NCBI GenBank assembly: GCA_021161545.1
Contig: JAGHAJ010000227.1
Location: 1 to 7,194, forward strand
Length of the DNA: 7,194 bases
Direction of reading: 5' to 3'
From: Synergistota bacterium
Lineage (GTDB): Bacteria > Synergistota > JAGHAJ01
How positions within the stretch are numbered: position 1 is the stretch's first letter; each line of letters opens with the position of its first letter. Both the position numbers and the translations under genes were made by a program. Below the pieces are notes generated by a model that was not told where the DNA came from, did no database searches, and saw only the letters and a program-made list of their open reading frames with translations. Below are positions 1 to 7,194 of the stretch, piece by piece.

Positions 1-892
1 AGATACCTACCACCTTTTTAGCAAGTTCATAGGCTTCCTCATACCCAAACACACCCTTTTGAGCAGAGATCGCCTCTCCTACCAGTTTTAATTCCACCTC
101 CAATTTTACAACACCTATGCTTAATGGCCCAACAGAGAAAACGCCACTTACCAATTCATCTCCATCTGCCGTAGCTTTCATTCCTTCTATACCCTCAGGT
201 GGAACCGCATTTATGTCTGCAACAAGTTTACACTCAGAGAGCCTTTCAAGAACAGCCTTAGAAAGTGTCCTCACCCCCGGAGGAGCAGTAGATACTACTA
301 TCTCAGAACCGCTACACGCATTGTAAACGGAATCATCAGACTTTTCAAGCTCAAAAACCTTTACCCTCTCTGCTCCTACCTTCTCATTTACATCTGCTGC
401 CACTTTTTTAGCCACATCATTAGCCAAATCTGCTATAACAACATCAGCTCCTTCCTTGGCGAAGAGATGTGCAGCACGAGAGCCAACATTACCTGCTCCT
501 GCCAGAACAGTAACCTTCTTACCAGAAAGACTGCCACCAAGCTTGTCCTTAACCGCACGGGCAACTTTCGCAACCAATGCAGCAGAGGTCGTACACGAAC
601 CAGCAGGGTCAAAGACAATAGCAATCTCAAAAGGTGGAAACATGGTCTTCTTGACCACCTTGAGCATATCCTCACACTTCGCTACATCTTTACCTCCTAT
701 AAACACAGTGGTATCCACTATTCCCTTGGGCCCCCGTGGAAACATCGCATCCATCACAAGGCTTTTCGTATCTTCTAAAGAAACATTCCCATATGTAACT
801 ACCGCATCTGCTCCACCGTCGTAAAGCACAAGAACATCAAACGGACTCGGATACCTGTCACTGCTTAAAAAGAAAACAACCTTTTTCGACAT
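1..892 (-). CDS. mtdB: NAD(P)-dependent methylene-tetrahydromethanopterin dehydrogenase, MtdA/MtdB family (C-terminus cut by window edge)
   Basis: It oxidises methylene-H4MPT to methenyl-H4MPT with NAD(P) in the cytoplasm, the first redox step of H4MPT-linked formaldehyde oxidation, or runs in reverse. I translated 297 codons from ATG at 892 to base 2 without a stop. The MtdB family is about 290-300 residues, so only a few are missing. The N-terminal half carries YDGGAD (24-29) and TYGNV (33-37), as in MtdA/MtdB. A Rossmann domain follows, with VTVLAGAGNVGSRAA (127-141; dinucleotide-binding GAGNVG at 132-137). DINAVPPEGIEG (226-237) matches the family's DYNAQPPLGIGG-type stretch. Strand beta-2 ends VVIAD, placing Asp155 where NAD-preferring Rossmann enzymes bind the ribose hydroxyls, so NAD preference is inferred. 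The start is supported by AGGGGGTG upstream, 12 bases after larC ends. Mch and Fhc for the following steps are in the same operon. The choice of MtdB over MtdA rests on the H4MPT context. Confidence 0.9.
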   Translation of the reverse strand, partial: MSKKVVFFLSSDRYPSPFDVLVLYDGGADAVVTYGNVSLEDTKSLVMDAMFPRGPKGIVDTTVFIGGKDVAKCEDMLKVVKKTMFPPFEIAIVFDPAGSCTTSAALVAKVARAVKDKLGGSLSGKKVTVLAGAGNVGSRAAHLFAKEGADVVIADLANDVAKKVAADVNEKVGAERVKVFELEKSDDSVYNACSGSEIVVSTAPPGVRTLSKAVLERLSECKLVADINAVPPEGIEGMKATADGDELVSGVFSVGPLSIGVVKLEVELKLVGEAISAQKGVFGYEEAYELAKKVVGI

Positions 893-897
893 AAAAA

Positions 898-906
898 CAC
901 CCCCTT
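898..906 (-). promoter_or_regulatory. Ribosome binding site of the mtdB-like gene
   Basis: AAGGGGGTG differs from the consensus AAGGAGGTG at one base and lies five bases before the ATG at 892. It overlaps the TAA stop of larC (905-907), so the two genes are probably translated from one message. The 12-base gap contains nothing else. Confidence 0.7.
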
Positions 907-2083
907 ATATTGTTTCCTTTCCCAACTTACTCATGACCTCTCCATAAACCTCCTTCAGTGAAACACCTCCCTTCAAAGCAATTTCCTTACAGGACTCATA
1001 TTCAGGGGAAACCGTAACGACCTTGTCACCCATGCTACCAACCTTTACCTTTACACTCCCCCAGATCGTCTCTACAAACTCCTCTTTCCTGAAAAGTTTA
1101 TACCTCCTGACCCTATTCACTCTAATCCCAAATGTTGTAGTTTCGGCAAAGAGCCGGCGTAAAATGAAATCCAGTTTATCCTCACTAACCAAAACCGATA
1201 ACCTGAAGCCTACCCTATTCTTTTTCATGAAACTTGGAATTATAACCACATCAAGGGCACCACTACCAATAAGAACATCATAAATAAAACCCATCATCTC
1301 AGGCGTAGAATCATCTATATCAGTCTCAAGCAACAATACCTCATCCATATCATAATCCTCAGCCACATCTACTCTCCCCAAAAACATCCGTAAAACATTA
1401 GGAAATGTAGCTATATCTCTGCTACCTGCTCCAAGGGACACTGTCTCCAAGTTCATGGATGGCATACCACCAAACCCACTCGAAAGCACCTTCACAATAG
1501 CAGCTCCTGTGGGGGTAACAAGTTCCCCATCACCGTCAGAATATATTGGCATCCCACGAAGTATCTCAGATGTTGCTGGTGCTGGTACCGGCAATACGCC
1601 ATGGGCACACTCCACTCTTCCACTTCCAACATTTAGCGCAGAAGTGTATATCTTCTCTATGCCAAGTAGCTCAAACCCAACAACGGAGCCCACAATATCG
1701 ACAATGGAATCCACAGCACCTACCTCATGAAAGTGCACATCTTCCACAGACATACCATGCACCTTAGCTTCTGCCTCAGCTACAACGTGAAAAATACTAA
1801 TAGATTTTTCCTTGACACTTTTGGAGAGCGCAGAGTTAGATACAATATCCTCGATATCCCTCAAATGCCTATGGTGATGGTGGTGCCCCTCATCCCACAA
1901 GACATCTACTTTTGTAGCTCTAACATGATTCTTATACACAGTCTTACTTCTCATCTCAAACTCCACACCAAGTGATTTGAGCTCATTAAACAACAAATCA
2001 ATATCTATACCGCTATCAACTATAGCACCCAAAAGCATATCTCCACCAACACCAGAAGAACAGTCTATGTATGCTATCTTCAA
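905..2083 (-). CDS. larC: LarC-family pyridinium-3,5-bisthiocarboxylic acid mononucleotide nickel chelatase
   Basis: LarC inserts nickel into pyridinium-3,5-bisthiocarboxylic acid mononucleotide in a CTP-dependent reaction. It is the last step of nickel-pincer nucleotide (NPN) cofactor synthesis, after LarB and LarE. The 392-residue protein has full family length and all expected blocks: DCSSGVGGDM (7-16), a histidine run HHHHHRH (67-73), VHFHEVGAVDSIVDIVG (116-132), PVPAPAT (165-171), ELVTPTGAA (187-195), TDIDDSTPE (254-262), MKKNRVG (286-292), TTTFGIR (315-321) and VSPEYESCKEIA (358-369). It is one continuous frame, unlike Lactobacillus larC, which is read by a programmed frameshift. The start is TTG at 2083, seven bases after GGAGG. 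LarB and LarE are not in the window, and LarC is not a standard member of C1 clusters, so its role here is open: NPN cofactor for an enzyme elsewhere, or a repurposed nucleotide/metal enzyme. The family call is firm; the biological role is not. Confidence 0.9.
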   Translation of the reverse strand: MKIAYIDCSSGVGGDMLLGAIVDSGIDIDLLFNELKSLGVEFEMRSKTVYKNHVRATKVDVLWDEGHHHHHRHLRDIEDIVSNSALSKSVKEKSISIFHVVAEAEAKVHGMSVEDVHFHEVGAVDSIVDIVGSVVGFELLGIEKIYTSALNVGSGRVECAHGVLPVPAPATSEILRGMPIYSDGDGELVTPTGAAIVKVLSSGFGGMPSMNLETVSLGAGSRDIATFPNVLRMFLGRVDVAEDYDMDEVLLLETDIDDSTPEMMGFIYDVLIGSGALDVVIIPSFMKKNRVGFRLSVLVSEDKLDFILRRLFAETTTFGIRVNRVRRYKLFRKEEFVETIWGSVKVKVGSMGDKVVTVSPEYESCKEIALKGGVSLKEVYGEVMSKLGKETI

Positions 2084-2087
2084 GGAA

Positions 2088-2096
2088 TCACCTCCC
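2088..2096 (-). promoter_or_regulatory. Strong ribosome binding site that fixes the TTG start of larC
   Basis: GGGAGGTGA is a near-perfect anti-16S match and lies four bases before TTG at 2083 (seven bases counted from GGAGG). The encoded N-terminus begins KIAYIDCSSG directly after this TTG, exactly where LarC proteins begin, so no later ATG is needed. Its first base is the last base of the upstream gene's TAG stop. Confidence 0.8.
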
Positions 2097-2950
2097 TAAA
2101 TAGGATTACCTTCCAGAAAATACACCATTAAGGCGGAGGCTATAAGGTCAGCAGAAGTTCCAGGATTCAGCTTTTTGTCATCACCTCTCAGATAAGCATC
2201 AAATTCAGATACAGCCTTTCTACCCTCAATGCTTCGCATACCTCCAGTAGACAAAACAGATTTTGCCATGTTAATAACATCTCTTGCAACATCCTCCCCA
2301 TATTTACGCGCAATAAGAGAATCAGGCATAGTAGAAAGCAACTCCAGGAACACCTGAACTACTGCATCCTGTAGGCTCAAGTCACATCTATTACCAACCA
2401 ACCGTGGATACAAGAAATCAAAGGTTATCTCATAGCAACTGGCATACTCATAGGCAATGGAATCTCTATCTTTCGCAATATTCATAGCCTCTTTAAGAGT
2501 AACATCTGGAGCGTCTCTGATATCTGCCCTTTTAGACCTACCCATACCACCCGGAGAAACCATTCTTATCCCTTTATATACCCACATAGCATCCTCAATA
2601 CTCAAAGAATCCAATACATTGCAAAGGGTATCCCTTAAAGATTCTCTTTCACCTCTAAGCCAATACGCCTTTGCTAAAGGAACTATTAACAAAACAACTC
2701 CAAGGTTGATATTTACTCCTAAATCCTTATATGTCCTCTCCAATGACCTGTATATAAGTTCCCCCACACCAAGGACATCCACATCATACAGGCTGATCCC
2801 CATGTTTACCGAGGCAAGAATAAAGTCTGCAAAATCCATTTCAGGGAAGCCCTTAAATGGATAGACATTACCAGGTTTTGGAAAAGCTGCTTCATACAAG
2901 CCTGCAAGTTGTGCGCATCTCACTATAAAGCTTTTCTTTTTTCCACACAT
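2096..2950 (-). CDS. CitG-like (triphosphoribosyl-dephospho-CoA synthase family) protein, probable C1-carrier biosynthesis
   Basis: CitG/MdcB enzymes join the ribose of ATP to dephospho-CoA with loss of adenine. Related proteins sit beside mch in methylotroph H4MPT clusters (Orf7 of Methylorubrum, recalled), where no citrate lyase is present. The 284-residue protein shows the family signatures: PKPGNV (24-29), NINLGVVLLIVPLA (80-93; compare TNLGxxLLLAPLA), PGGMGRSKRADI (133-144), RDSIAYEYA (162-170), GG (236-237) and NPGTSADLI (262-270). The PGGMGRSKRADI block and the C1 neighbours argue against a citrate or malonate decarboxylase role. I infer a ribosyl- or phosphoribosyl-transfer step in H4MPT or methylofuran synthesis. 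It overlaps the ATP-grasp gene by 28 bases from ATG at 2950, which has only a weak ribosome binding site (GAGTGAG). A GTG at 2923, overlapping the preceding stop by one base, would also give an intact domain. Confidence 0.8.
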   Translation of the reverse strand: MCGKKKSFIVRCAQLAGLYEAAFPKPGNVYPFKGFPEMDFADFILASVNMGISLYDVDVLGVGELIYRSLERTYKDLGVNINLGVVLLIVPLAKAYWLRGERESLRDTLCNVLDSLSIEDAMWVYKGIRMVSPGGMGRSKRADIRDAPDVTLKEAMNIAKDRDSIAYEYASCYEITFDFLYPRLVGNRCDLSLQDAVVQVFLELLSTMPDSLIARKYGEDVARDVINMAKSVLSTGGMRSIEGRKAVSEFDAYLRGDDKKLNPGTSADLIASALMVYFLEGNPI

Positions 2951-3795
2951 CTCAATATCTCACTCGCTATATTTACATCTGTGATACTCTGTAACCCCTT
3001 CCACCCAGGAATGCCATTCACCTCCAACACATATATCCTATTACTCTCCGAAATCAGAAAATCTATGCCTACATAATCCGCCTTAAACGTCTCTGCAACC
3101 CTTTCACATACCTCTGCCATTTCGTTATTCACTTTGTAGCGCTCAGGTGAACTACCTTGTGATATATTGTTCTTCCATCCATCAGAAACGCGCCTCATTG
3201 CAGAAACAACCTTACCACACGCCCAAAAAACTCTAATATCATAATTCCCATGCGGGATAAACTCCTGCATGTAGAAAACATACCTCAATAACTGAAATCC
3301 CTTGAATATCCTGTAAGCCTCATCCTTGTTCCGAACCCTAATCACTCCCACTCCATTAGAGCCAAAGATAGGCTTAACAATTACATCACTACCAAGCTGC
3401 TCAAAATAGTTCATAGCATCAGAAACCTTCTCAACTACCACCGTCTTTGGCGTAGGGATACCCATTTTCGAAAGTGCTATAGAAGAATAAAGTTTATCTA
3501 CCGTTCTCTCTATCGTAAAAGGGCTATTCACAACAGGAATACCCATACTCTCCAACGCATACAAGGCATCTAATCTAAATATTACTTGCTCCAGAGAGCC
3601 AAGAGGAACACTCCGAACCAGAATGGCACCACAATTTGAAGCCACCTGTTCCACATTCTTCACATCAAAGCACGGCAAACCAATAGAAAAGGAAGCAGGA
3701 TGAAGAAACACAACACTCCATCCCTTACCCTCAGCAACTCTCCTTAACTCCTCAACCTGCCATCCTACACCAGAAGACACAATCCCCAATTTCAT
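2923..3795 (-). CDS. RimK-like ATP-grasp ligase, probable glutamate (or other amino acid) ligase for H4MPT or methylofuran synthesis
   Basis: ATP-grasp ligases form an acyl-phosphate on a carboxylate and couple it to an amine. RimK-type members typically add glutamate. The 290-residue protein is of RimK length. The N-terminal pre-ATP-grasp domain (about 1-95) is followed by VKPIFGSNGVGV (140-151, ATP-binding lysine and glycine-rich loop), MQEFIPHGNYDIRVF (176-190), MRR (200-202), WKNNISQG (207-214), Asp245 and EVNGIPGWKGLQ (258-269), which holds the metal-binding Glu and Asn. Known relatives in C1-carrier pathways are archaeal MptN (H4MPT:glutamate ligase) and MfnD (tyramine-glutamate ligase of methanofuran synthesis). 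Bacterial methylofuran carries a polyglutamate chain. Orf5 in methylotroph mch clusters is a comparable gene (recalled). The substrate cannot be chosen from sequence. Its ATG overlaps the mch stop (ATGA), and GGAGAAG lies eight bases upstream. The family call is firm and the pathway is inferred from position. Confidence 0.85.
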   Translation of the reverse strand: MKLGIVSSGVGWQVEELRRVAEGKGWSVVFLHPASFSIGLPCFDVKNVEQVASNCGAILVRSVPLGSLEQVIFRLDALYALESMGIPVVNSPFTIERTVDKLYSSIALSKMGIPTPKTVVVEKVSDAMNYFEQLGSDVIVKPIFGSNGVGVIRVRNKDEAYRIFKGFQLLRYVFYMQEFIPHGNYDIRVFWACGKVVSAMRRVSDGWKNNISQGSSPERYKVNNEMAEVCERVAETFKADYVGIDFLISESNRIYVLEVNGIPGWKGLQSITDVNIASEILRCVEKRKAL

Positions 3796-4721
3796 CTAAA
3801 AGACTTCTCCAATATCTCTGTATTCACACGACCAGCGTGGTATAGTCTACCAGTTCTTAAAGATATCATAGAAACCTCAGCCGGGCTGAACAAAAGGGGA
3901 TCTATGCTATAGAAATCACCATTGCTCCGCTTAAACACCTCGGAAAAAGGCAAACCATAGCTATCAGAAGAATCTGAAGGAACCCTTTTAATAATGTCTG
4001 ATAGATCGGTCAAATCATCCACATAGAACACAACCTTTCCCCCATATATAATGGCGTCATTCAGTTTACCTATGGCATCAAGCACACTCTCGCCTACAGG
4101 AGGTATAGGAGAAAATCCTAATGCAGATCTTACATTCCTCACATCATAACCTATCTCCATAAGCTTGTGGATACCAGTTTCCACCACCCTTGCAGGTACT
4201 TGGATAGAGCCTACAAGACTATTAGAAGGGGAAAAAACTATACCTACATCATCTTCATGTAGTCCACAACTATCAGATATATATTCCACCACTTCCTGAG
4301 GAGGGACATTGGAGGTCTCTATGAAGAGCACTGCCCTTACTCCTCTTTCCACCCATTGAAATTTATCAAAGAGCTCTTCTTTACTACCAAGAAGCCTTCC
4401 AGGTCCTGAACACATACCAAAAAAGCCACTTACAGATATTCTCCAACCAGCATACTGAGAGGCAAGACAAGCAAAAATAGGTGAATCTGTAAGCACCTGC
4501 ACCCCAAACTGCCCATGAGCATAAGAAATATTCACATTCCCCAAACCTGAAAGTAACATCTTAGAGACAAGTAAACCTGCACCAATAGAGCCATCGACTT
4601 CCACTCCCGCATCCACCAAAATAGCACCTCCACGAGAGCGAAAGACCCTTACCTTAAGTTCATCTTTATTTTCAACTATCTTCTGAAGAATGGCCCATGC
4701 CCTCTCGTTTAATGCGACCAT
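3792..4721 (-). CDS. mch: Methenyl-tetrahydromethanopterin cyclohydrolase
   Basis: It hydrolyses N5,N10-methenyl-H4MPT to N5-formyl-H4MPT, or the reverse, linking MtdB to the formyltransferase. The 309 residues match family length. Visible signatures are VDAGVEVDGSIGAGL (36-50), DSPIFACLASQYAGW (79-93), MCSGPGR (103-109; usually MGSGPAR in the family), ARVVET (177-182), NDAIIYGG (221-228), LPFSEVFKRSNGDFYSIDP (257-275) and the C-terminal RTGRLYHAGRVNTEIL (289-304). Arg178 and Glu181 in RVVE correspond by motif to the Arg/Glu pair implicated in catalysis in the Archaeoglobus enzyme. The start at 4721 overlaps the fhcC end by 13 bases, with a purine-rich AAGGGGG upstream as ribosome binding site. 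The downstream ATP-grasp gene overlaps by four bases, so the two are likely translationally coupled. Confidence 0.95.
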   Translation of the reverse strand: MVALNERAWAILQKIVENKDELKVRVFRSRGGAILVDAGVEVDGSIGAGLLVSKMLLSGLGNVNISYAHGQFGVQVLTDSPIFACLASQYAGWRISVSGFFGMCSGPGRLLGSKEELFDKFQWVERGVRAVLFIETSNVPPQEVVEYISDSCGLHEDDVGIVFSPSNSLVGSIQVPARVVETGIHKLMEIGYDVRNVRSALGFSPIPPVGESVLDAIGKLNDAIIYGGKVVFYVDDLTDLSDIIKRVPSDSSDSYGLPFSEVFKRSNGDFYSIDPLLFSPAEVSMISLRTGRLYHAGRVNTEILEKSFR

Positions 4722-5521
4722 ACAAGGATTTCCCCCTTTCCAAGAGAGAGAAAATCTCCCATGTAGCGTCTAAAATAGCCACTTTCAAATTCCAAAGGCA
4801 GCTCCAACTGAAAGAGGTCACCAAGATAACGAGAATAAAGCAACATAGAATACGGTTTAAACTCACCACTGTACAGAAATGATGGCAACAATCCAGCCTG
4901 ACGATAAAGTACTATACTCCCCCTTTTCATACCCGCTCCAATACCCTCTGCCGCCTCACCCATAACAAATATTGTACCAGCAATTACATCAACACCAACA
5001 AACTTACCTACACTGCCAGACACAAATACAATGCCCCTTCTCATCCTCCTACCAAGGTCAGCACCTGCAGAACCATTTATAAAAACCACACCACCAGACA
5101 TTCCCCCCTTTTCACCCCAATACGATGCACAAGCAAAGTTACCAACACTACCATTAACCCTGATAATTCCTCCGCTCATTCCAGATGCCATCCAGTCAGA
5201 AACATTTCCATCAACAAACACCTTTCCCCCACTCATGTCTTTGGCAAGATGCATTCCAACATCTCCATGTATCTCAATGCTTCCCTGCGACATGCCCTCT
5301 CCTATCCTCTTTACCTTCCTCAAATCTCCCTCTATAAGAACAGAATCATCTATTTCACCAGACACCTTAAAAAAATCACCCAGATAGGCATCCTCATTGC
5401 CATGATGCACAGGTATATGTTCTACATCTTTAATACTAGAGCAATTTACTATCACGTCTGGTTTGAGCTTAGGAGCCTCTACAGGTATCTTAAGTTCTTC
5501 CATTAACTCCAGCCTAAGCAT
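4709..5521 (-). CDS. fhcC: Formyltransferase/hydrolase complex subunit C (formylmethanofuran dehydrogenase subunit C-like beta-helix protein)
   Basis: FhcC is a structural subunit of the Fhc complex, which takes formyl-H4MPT to formate through a methanofuran-type carrier. It belongs to the FmdC/FwdC family, related to the C-terminal glutamate synthase beta-helix domain. From the ATG at 5521 it is 270 residues. Residues about 64-202 are degenerate glycine repeats (IEGDLRKVKRIGEGMSQG, IHGDVGMHLAKDMSGG, VDGNVSDWMASGMSGG, VNGSVGNFACASYWGEKGGMSGG, INGSAGADLGRRMRRG, VSGSVGKFVGVDVIAG, MGEAAEGIGAGMKRG), giving a right-handed parallel beta-helix. A roughly 65-residue C-terminal tail follows. An in-frame TTG at 5530 directly abuts GGAGG and is too close to serve as start, whereas the ATG lies nine bases away. 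The gene overlaps fhcD by eight bases and mch by 13. Confidence 0.92.
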   Translation of the reverse strand: MLRLELMEELKIPVEAPKLKPDVIVNCSSIKDVEHIPVHHGNEDAYLGDFFKVSGEIDDSVLIEGDLRKVKRIGEGMSQGSIEIHGDVGMHLAKDMSGGKVFVDGNVSDWMASGMSGGIIRVNGSVGNFACASYWGEKGGMSGGVVFINGSAGADLGRRMRRGIVFVSGSVGKFVGVDVIAGTIFVMGEAAEGIGAGMKRGSIVLYRQAGLLPSFLYSGEFKPYSMLLYSRYLGDLFQLELPLEFESGYFRRYMGDFLSLGKGEILVWSH

Positions 5522-6410
5522 GATTACCAACCTCCATAACTTCTCTCAGATATATCTTGTATTTACCCAGATTCCCTCCATAGTTTCCCGCACTTATTTT
5601 TAAAACACCTTCACTCTCAGCAGCAGCCTCTATAGCCAATCTCATAGCATCTTTTACAGCAACCAATGAAAGACCATCAAATACTATCTCCATTACAGAT
5701 CTCACTCCAGAAGGCAGACTACCAGAAGTATGTGCGCGCAGTTGGGGAACAAAAGCAGTATTTGTGGAAGCATGCAAAAATTTATACTTAGAACCCACCT
5801 TACTCCCACTCCTCACAACTCCTCCAGGAAATGGTAATATCACCCCATTTATGCATTTAGCCGAAGATACTGCCCTTTCACTGGCATACAGTGCATGTTC
5901 GACAGAATCCGCAAGGATAAGTATGTTCCCACCTCCAACTGATTCTGTAACTCCATAACCCTCCTCTATTACCGCCTCTCCTTCCATAACAGGTATCCTC
6001 CAGAACCTCCTACCACCAATAACCTTGCTCATCTGAAATCCATCGCCAAAGTATCTCAGCTTCTTTCCAACAAGAAGTTTATCCTCAGAATCAAGCCCAT
6101 TAAAACAGGAGGCAGTAGGACAAGTCAAAACACACTGCCCTATCCTATTTAAGAGCTGCTTTTCAAGAGATTCCTTGGACATAGAGAAGATAAGTACACT
6201 TATTCCAAATCTACCATCAAGGGTCCTTTCCACTTCACCCTCTATGCCTGCTTCACATCCACAACCTATAACAGAAGTAGCAAAACCAGTAATACATTTA
6301 GCAGCATGCATGGCCCACTGCTCGTTCACAGCTGTAATCACCAAGCGGGTACCATACATCTTAAATGCCTCTGCAAATGTATCCTCTAATACAGAGAGCA
6401 TGCTATTCAC
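5514..6410 (-). CDS. fhcD: Formylmethanofuran--tetrahydromethanopterin formyltransferase (Fhc subunit D)
   Basis: FhcD transfers the formyl group between N5-formyl-H4MPT and the methanofuran/methylofuran carrier. The 298 residues match the Ftr family. Clear signatures are VEDTFAEAF-like LEDTFAEAF (8-16), TGFATSVIGCGCEAGIE (41-57), RIGQCVLTCPTASCFNG (89-105), PFPGGVVRSGSKVGSKYKFL (193-212) and ISAGNYGGNLGKY (272-284). The start is GTG at 6410. GGAGG lies exactly nine bases upstream, and the protein aligns with Ftr N-termini from there; the ATG three codons later would sit 18 bases from that site. It overlaps the fhcA stop and the fhcC start by eight bases each. In bacteria this subunit is part of the Fhc complex together with FhcA and FhcC, which flank it here, and FhcB, not seen here. 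Confidence 0.96.
   Translation of the reverse strand: MNSMLSVLEDTFAEAFKMYGTRLVITAVNEQWAMHAAKCITGFATSVIGCGCEAGIEGEVERTLDGRFGISVLIFSMSKESLEKQLLNRIGQCVLTCPTASCFNGLDSEDKLLVGKKLRYFGDGFQMSKVIGGRRFWRIPVMEGEAVIEEGYGVTESVGGGNILILADSVEHALYASERAVSSAKCINGVILPFPGGVVRSGSKVGSKYKFLHASTNTAFVPQLRAHTSGSLPSGVRSVMEIVFDGLSLVAVKDAMRLAIEAAAESEGVLKISAGNYGGNLGKYKIYLREVMEVGNHA
5531..5535 (-). promoter_or_regulatory. Ribosome binding site that decides the fhcC start
   Basis: GGAGG lies inside the fhcD coding end, nine bases before ATG at 5521. It directly abuts the in-frame TTG at 5530, which excludes that codon as a practical start and trims three residues from the longest reading. Confidence 0.75.
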
Positions 6411-7194
6411 AGCGAATTACCTCCTCATTCTTAAAATACACATCCTCCACAACATAATTGGAAAAGTTTACAGAATAGTACTCGCTAAACATTTTCATCA
6501 CTTTATCGTCTAACATCTTGTCCTCTACACCAGTATCTACACGGATAAACCTGCCCAAACGCTCACCAGAAACTATCTTACCCTTGTCAACAACTAATTC
6601 TCCATTCTTAAACAGCATATAAACGCTACCCATTGTATCTGCCACACTACTCCTCTTTTTGTATATTGCTATGTCTGCATCTGCACCAGCACCAAGGTGT
6701 CCCTTATTCGCAAATCCAAGAGCTTTAGCAGGTCCTGCACTCATCATAATTATTATCTCGCTTAGTGATAACTCCCTATGGATGCCTTCTAAAAAGGTTC
6801 TTTTTCTAAAAGATGAGGGCAGTGTCTTTATTACATCACGCCTTGCATCCTCACTTGTCAACCACTTCACAACTTCTGGGTACATGAAAAATGGCCCTCC
6901 ATTAGGGCTATCCGTCGTCAAAAATATCTGCCACGGATCAAGCATCAGCGCAAGCTCCAGCCCCGCCGCCCACTGAACAGCATTAACTACACTATTTTTC
7001 TTATACTTATAAGGCACTATGCCAGCACCAGCCTCAACTTCTACATCCGTACTAACCCATCTATTGTTTGTAAGCGTATGTAAATGATATTGCCATGGAG
7101 TATCTGCCGTCATAGTAGTAGTATCTTCAAACAAAACTTGCCCCATGTCAGCAGTAATATTGGGATGTTTCCTTAACTCAGAGGCAACCTTTTC
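6403..7194 (-). CDS. fhcA: Formyltransferase/hydrolase complex subunit A, amidohydrolase (C-terminal part; N-terminus beyond window edge)
   Basis: FhcA is the zinc amidohydrolase that hydrolyses the N-formylated carrier to formate. It is homologous to FmdA/FwdA of archaeal formylmethanofuran dehydrogenase. 263 residues are visible, open to the window edge with no start needed; the family is about 540-570 residues, so roughly the C-terminal half is present. In visible numbering, HPNITADMGQVLFEDTTTMTAD (10-31), EAGAGIVPYKYKKNSVVNAVQWAAGLEL (54-81) and TTDSPNGGPFFMYP (93-106) are family blocks. Asp95 in TTDSPNGG matches the catalytic, metal-site aspartate. The Met at 7146 is internal, since the sixteen upstream codons continue the family alignment. 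The metal-binding HxH and carboxylated lysine would lie upstream, outside the window. No redox subunits are visible, consistent with the bacterial hydrolase. FhcB is expected upstream. Confidence 0.93.
   Translation of the reverse strand, partial: EKVASELRKHPNITADMGQVLFEDTTTMTADTPWQYHLHTLTNNRWVSTDVEVEAGAGIVPYKYKKNSVVNAVQWAAGLELALMLDPWQIFLTTDSPNGGPFFMYPEVVKWLTSEDARRDVIKTLPSSFRKRTFLEGIHRELSLSEIIIMMSAGPAKALGFANKGHLGAGADADIAIYKKRSSVADTMGSVYMLFKNGELVVDKGKIVSGERLGRFIRVDTGVEDKMLDDKVMKMFSEYYSVNFSNYVVEDVYFKNEEVIRCE
6420..6426 (-). promoter_or_regulatory. Ribosome binding site that fixes the GTG start of fhcD
   Basis: GAGGAGG lies within the last codons of fhcA, with nine bases between GGAGG and the GTG at 6410. 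The same GGAGG plus nine-base spacing recurs at the fhcC start, which supports both assignments. Confidence 0.75.

Follow-up and report, generated by a model that had tools for sequence, protein, structure and literature searches.

In an uncultured, Synergistota-like bacterium, a gene for the nickel insertase LarC lies inside an operon for H4MPT-linked one-carbon (C1) transfer. It is probably there because several Synergistota-like lineages built synthesis of the nickel-pincer nucleotide (NPN) into this cluster and co-express it with the C1 genes. The gene is a larC, its conserved columns are intact, and its linkage to C1 genes recurs in the phylum. The reason for the linkage is likely to be a neighbouring pair of genes, encoding a protein of 592 aa (u592) and a stand-alone LarC2-like protein, although of this we are less sure. 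The window, by which we mean the whole stretch of DNA analysed, is a complete 7194-bp contig (C238) of the MAG G000 (1.58 Mb, 82% complete, 288 contigs); the analysis drew on draft MAGs. All eight genes of the window are on the minus strand:

2..892, minus strand: mtdB-like gene for a methylene-H4MPT dehydrogenase with Mpt_N domain (PF09176, E 7e-28), stop codon off the contig
905..2083, minus strand: larC, a single ORF with LarC1 and LarC2 halves and a TTG start (Pfam and NCBIfam profiles, PDB 12bi, 41/42 columns)
2088..2095, minus strand: Shine-Dalgarno sequence GGAGGTGA in the 12-bp gap upstream of larC (direct reading of the sequence)
2096..2950, minus strand: CitG-like gene, by position orf7 of methylotroph islands (PF01874, E 3.5e-59)
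2923..3795, minus strand: RimK-type ATP-grasp ligase gene, MptN-like, by position orf5/MyfB (PMC8141765) (NF040720, E 1.7e-74, below cut-off)
3792..4721, minus strand: mch (TIGR03120, E 1.5e-102)
4709..5530, minus strand: fhcC (TIGR03122, E 1.6e-67)
5514..6410, minus strand: ftr (fhcD) (TIGR03119, E 1.2e-120)
6403..7194, minus strand: C-terminal part of fhcA, cut by the contig end (TIGR03121 positions 288-555)

The larC ORF encodes 392 aa, of which residues 4-380 match Pfam Ni_insertion (PF01969) with an E value of 5e-141. Both NCBIfam LarC halves (TIGR00299 and NF052512) score above cut-off, and the PDB match is the full-length LarC 12bi (E 2e-97). The gene is separated from each neighbour by exactly 12 bases (893-904 and 2084-2095), and its TTG start is preceded by a full Shine-Dalgarno sequence within such a gap. 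The profile matches and the gaps confirm the preliminary description, which had reported a full-length LarC gene 12 bases from a CitG-like and an mtdB-like gene in the same orientation, and the neighbours were confirmed as the fhcA C-terminal part, ftr, fhcC, mch, RimK-type ATP-grasp, CitG and mtdB-like genes.

Across 102 other LarC proteins 42 columns reach a conservation of 95% or more; at these the window LarC departs from the consensus once, by the substitution G216S, which it has in common with the LarC of G006, a genome of another Synergistota family. Judged from these residues it appears to be a canonical nickel insertase, with nothing marking altered function. With the known NPN nickel insertase LarC (PDB 12bi, full length; 6bwo, C-terminal half) it shares the LarC1 and LarC2 parts and the conserved columns, but it carries G216S and its gene belongs to an H4MPT C1 operon, not to a lar operon. 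The motifs TDIDDSTPE and MKKNRVG had been proposed as marks of a LarC subgroup; this was rejected, the syntenic G006 protein reading SDIDDSSPE and MKKNRPG. It had also been asked whether LarC proteins encoded beside C1 genes form a clade. The window and G006 proteins do group together with 100% support, while their placement with the main Synergistota LarC (support 17, on a poorly supported backbone) is neither shown nor rejected. The larC genes of G002, G004 and G008 represent a different lineage.

By Pfam and NCBIfam profiles the mch, ftr, fhc and mtdB-type genes form a single run, an H4MPT-linked C1-transfer operon. The order mch-orf5-orf7 is known from an island of a methanotroph (PMC3615186), and H4MPT genes, with fwdD, have already been reported from Synergistetes (PMC5020050). 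The methylotroph H4MPT C1-transfer islands (mch-orf5-orf7, fhcCDAB, mtdB) have the same order of mch, ATP-grasp and CitG genes, with fhc adjacent. G000 differs from them in the insertion of larC (with larB on a linked contig) and in the presence of fwdD, as in Synergistetes.

The linked contig, C190, carries on one strand genes for a PucR-type regulator, u592, the stand-alone LarC2-like protein, a sodium:solute symporter, LarB, a NifX-like protein and an ATP-grasp protein, followed by fwdD and fhcB, the last two identified by eye and via relatives. Its fhcB runs off the contig end, and the window begins inside fhcA. Since fhcA comes next after fhcB both in G004 and on contig C65 of G006, C190 and the window most likely adjoin, and C190 is most likely the upstream part of the window's C1 operon. 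Family membership of the C190 LarB was confirmed, and its gene is the only true larB in the genome. LarE comes as an RdgB::LarE fusion encoded on C45, where the contig end truncates it; its neighbour was identified by eye as rph. Five proteins of G000 match the LarA superfamily; three of the five were checked, and all three are LarA homologues. The partner pathway of LarC (LarB, LarE and a LarA-type acceptor) is thus present in the same genome. The preliminary description had held that partners located elsewhere in the genome, together with a LarC that clusters with canonical ones, would speak for chance co-location; larE and the LarA homologues are indeed located elsewhere, but larB is not, its place being in what appears to be the upstream part of the operon. 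From gene content, NPN synthesis is predicted to be complete in G000 and general in the phylum, where larB scores above cut-off in 165/185 genomes, larE in 156/185 and the LarA family is matched in 146/185. For Synergistota a mean of at least two LarA homologues per genome has been reported (PMC11770544).

Some other arrangements of these genes were seen. RdgB (XTP/dITP diphosphatase) is fused to LarE in G006 (L115:8578-9918) as well as in G000 (L216:2058-3272), and in G004 (L155:2909-4246) and G002 (L207:9201-10541) the two are either adjacent or fused. On contig C32 of G000 (L117:1866-3002) a LarC1 half is fused with a TrmO_N (tRNA methyltransferase) domain, and the gene next to it was identified by eye as phosphofructokinase. 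A LarA homologue on contig C40 (L202:1147-6534) is encoded in one run with a member of the urocanase family and, by eye, an old-yellow-enzyme-type reductase, which suggests a 2-hydroxyacid isomerase in another catabolic route.

In LarA enzymes the NPN cofactor serves hydride transfer, and NPN-loaded LarA has shown an intact-protein mass shift near +450 Da. In the mechanism that we propose, LarC would insert nickel, with CTP, into pyridinium dithiocarboxylate mononucleotide, yielding finished NPN, the presumed product of the pathway. LarB would come from what appears to be the operon's upstream part, next to fhcB and fwdD, and LarE from elsewhere in the genome, and several LarA-superfamily proteins of G000 could take the cofactor. 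NPN synthesis would thereby have been built into the H4MPT/methanofuran C1-transfer cluster in several Synergistota-like lineages and be expressed with it, if, as we infer, the genes are co-transcribed. Put most cautiously, a normal LarC is probably made together with the C1-transfer enzymes.

The linkage is not confined to one genome. G006 has the order ftr-fhcC-mch-ATPgrasp-citG-larC-mtdB, identical to that of the window, with LarC proteins of 54-55% identity and MtdB-like proteins of 72% identity in the same position; there the order continues with genes for a DUF6513/pterin-binding protein, a flavoprotein and the RdgB::LarE fusion. Among 185 phylum genomes 23 have mch, and only these two have larC in the window slot; in G004 and G008 citG is directly beside mtdB without larC. 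NPN-synthesis genes are nevertheless C1-linked in 7 of the 23 mch-bearing genomes and in four of the six mch-bearing families, in several different arrangements, with larB C1-linked in f1 (G000), f3 (G006), f8 and f11 (G071). The four f8 genomes have citG and then larB-larC1, with u592 and the LarC2-like gene next in three of them, G020 has larB-larC1 in the C1 cluster without u592, and G071 has on one strand larE, a divergent LarC-like gene, larB, larC1, u592, the LarC2-like gene, an mtdB-like gene, an ATP-grasp gene, fwdD, fhcB and fhcA. In the stretches read, the other 16 mch-bearing genomes have no linked NPN-synthesis gene except larE in G004, and linkage was not seen in families f5 and f2. 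As larB and larC lie elsewhere in G004 and the f5 genomes, the linkage is dispensable for either pathway. In a search for larC next to mch in other phyla, the window C1 genes were found in 0 of 80 LarC loci from other genomes (flank up to 10 kb), and a literature search for papers linking LarC with H4MPT returned nothing relevant.

A DUF2193 protein (PF09959, E 3e-235 in G006) is encoded in the bacterial C1 cluster, with 71-87% identity among four genomes:

L116:4319-5854: DUF2193 gene of G006
L155:15806-17323: DUF2193 gene of G004
L154:628-2121: DUF2193 gene of G159
L150:15753-17249: DUF2193 gene of G161

DUF2193 is described as conserved in methanogens (PMC9431491), and it may be part of H4MPT/methanofuran chemistry.

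The u592 protein has no Pfam match at E 1 and no NCBIfam match at E 0.1, including Lar_N and LarA, and by sequence family it does not match the LarA superfamily. Its AlphaFold model is mostly helical (pLDDT 80, pTM 0.84). A PDB sequence search gave no convincing match, Foldseek found no fold match at E 0.001, the best VIA-align Z of 4.7 was within background, and a profile comparison with DUF2193 revealed no relationship. Complete or almost complete copies occur in 12 of the phylum's 185 genomes, and G010 has a remnant. In all 11 Synergistota loci with flanking sequence the LarC2-like gene is a direct neighbour of u592; the locus of G132 is cut by the contig end. Ten of the 12 genomes have mch (Fisher p 6e-9, uncorrected for relatedness); G118 and G132 have u592 without mch, and the u592 genes of f5 lie apart from mch and larB. 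The mch-free module of G118 (L194:4419-7637) consists of upstream TRAP-like transporter genes (by eye), the LarC2-like gene, u592 and a DUF169 gene. Transporter genes beside u592 (SSS in G000 and G006; TRAP-like and DcuC-like, by eye, in G118 and G132) are a hint of a catabolic enzyme for an imported acid.

Outside the phylum u592 was searched for in 438 genomes. None was found in 40 LarC-bearing genomes of other phyla, in a search run without a positive control, and one was found among 398 Bacillota genomes (G500), where one strand carries u592, a ferredoxin gene, a gene for a 134-aa protein, the LarC2-like gene, genes for a PocR sensor kinase and a response regulator, larB and a full larC. 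This contig is small within an otherwise long-contig genome, and mis-binning is possible. No LarA-free genome with u592 was found among those checked; G500 encodes a protein of NPN isomerase group 22. In the LarC2-like proteins the KKGR/KKNR motif is retained, but some LarC2 residues are lost. The best PDB match of the G000 protein (E 9e-6) is MK0293 of Methanopyrus kandleri (3c19), likewise stand-alone and LarC2-like, which was deposited as uncharacterized.

The lar operon of L. plantarum has the order larA-larB-larC1-larC2-...-larE. The f8 and G071 clusters resemble it in their order larB-larC1-X-LarC2-like, but X is u592 and not LarA, and C1 genes adjoin. In G000 and G006 larC occupies a second site in the operon, apart from u592, the LarC2-like gene and larB; all four are together missing from the otherwise similar operon of G004. 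It is from this joint presence and absence in closely comparable operons that we take u592 and the LarC2-like protein as the likely reason for the linkage.

How far does this reach? The preliminary description had offered as one option an NPN-dependent enzyme acting on a C1-related or 2-hydroxyacid substrate. It is possible, and we put it forward tentatively, that larC (with larB) serves u592 as a new NPN-dependent non-LarA enzyme supplying or using C1 units, with the LarC2-like protein finishing or repairing the cofactor. The constant adjacency of the two genes in Synergistota, the G500 cluster, the larB-larC1-u592-LarC2-like order in three of the four f8 genomes and in G071, the co-occurrence with mch, the comparison with G004 and the published expectation of non-LarA NPN proteins (PMC11796402) all speak for it. 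Against it stand the LarA-superfamily protein in every u592 genome checked, the LarC2 residues missing from the LarC2-like proteins, the unlinked u592 of f5, the mch-free G118 and G132, and G020, which has larB-larC1 without u592. That larC is instead a housekeeping gene which landed in a convenient operon, with no meaning for C1 metabolism, we consider unlikely. NPN genes are general in the phylum, so that any insertion would bring a working larC; but the same slot is occupied in two families at 54-55% LarC identity, larB or larC is C1-linked in several arrangements, and the crude chance of 7/23 is about 2e-7, a figure which ignores relatedness and is for that reason too small.

The preliminary description had also considered that LarC was recruited to another nucleotide-dependent step of H4MPT or methylofuran synthesis, in keeping with its place between the CitG-like and mtdB-like genes of a canonical island. 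This we regard as very improbable: the highly conserved columns are kept, all but one, in most mch genomes the C1 cluster lacks larC, which is also missing from the corresponding operon of G004, and the partner larB travels with larC, which fits NPN. We thus prefer the integration of NPN synthesis into the C1 cluster, even though the 16 genomes without a linked gene, the separate larB and larC of G004 and f5, and a contig join derived from a fragmented MAG count against it.

Some 15% of the genomes surveyed encode LarB, LarE and LarC but no LarA, and NPN proteins other than LarA are expected (PMC11796402). In two phyla the u592 family is accompanied by LarC2-like genes and often by larB and larC; C1 genes join it in one of the two. 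From its gene context u592 is a sound candidate for the predicted non-LarA NPN protein, a concrete one to which the published E. coli NPN system (PMC11796402) is suited. Together u592 and the LarC2-like protein might form a non-LarA enzyme system, not named before, that works with the nickel-pincer nucleotide (or a related metallated nucleotide). In several Synergistota it would be tied to H4MPT C1 transfer, with the window larC as part of its supply line; we would sooner doubt than assert this. As far as our literature search found, it would, if true, be the first link between NPN and one-carbon metabolism.
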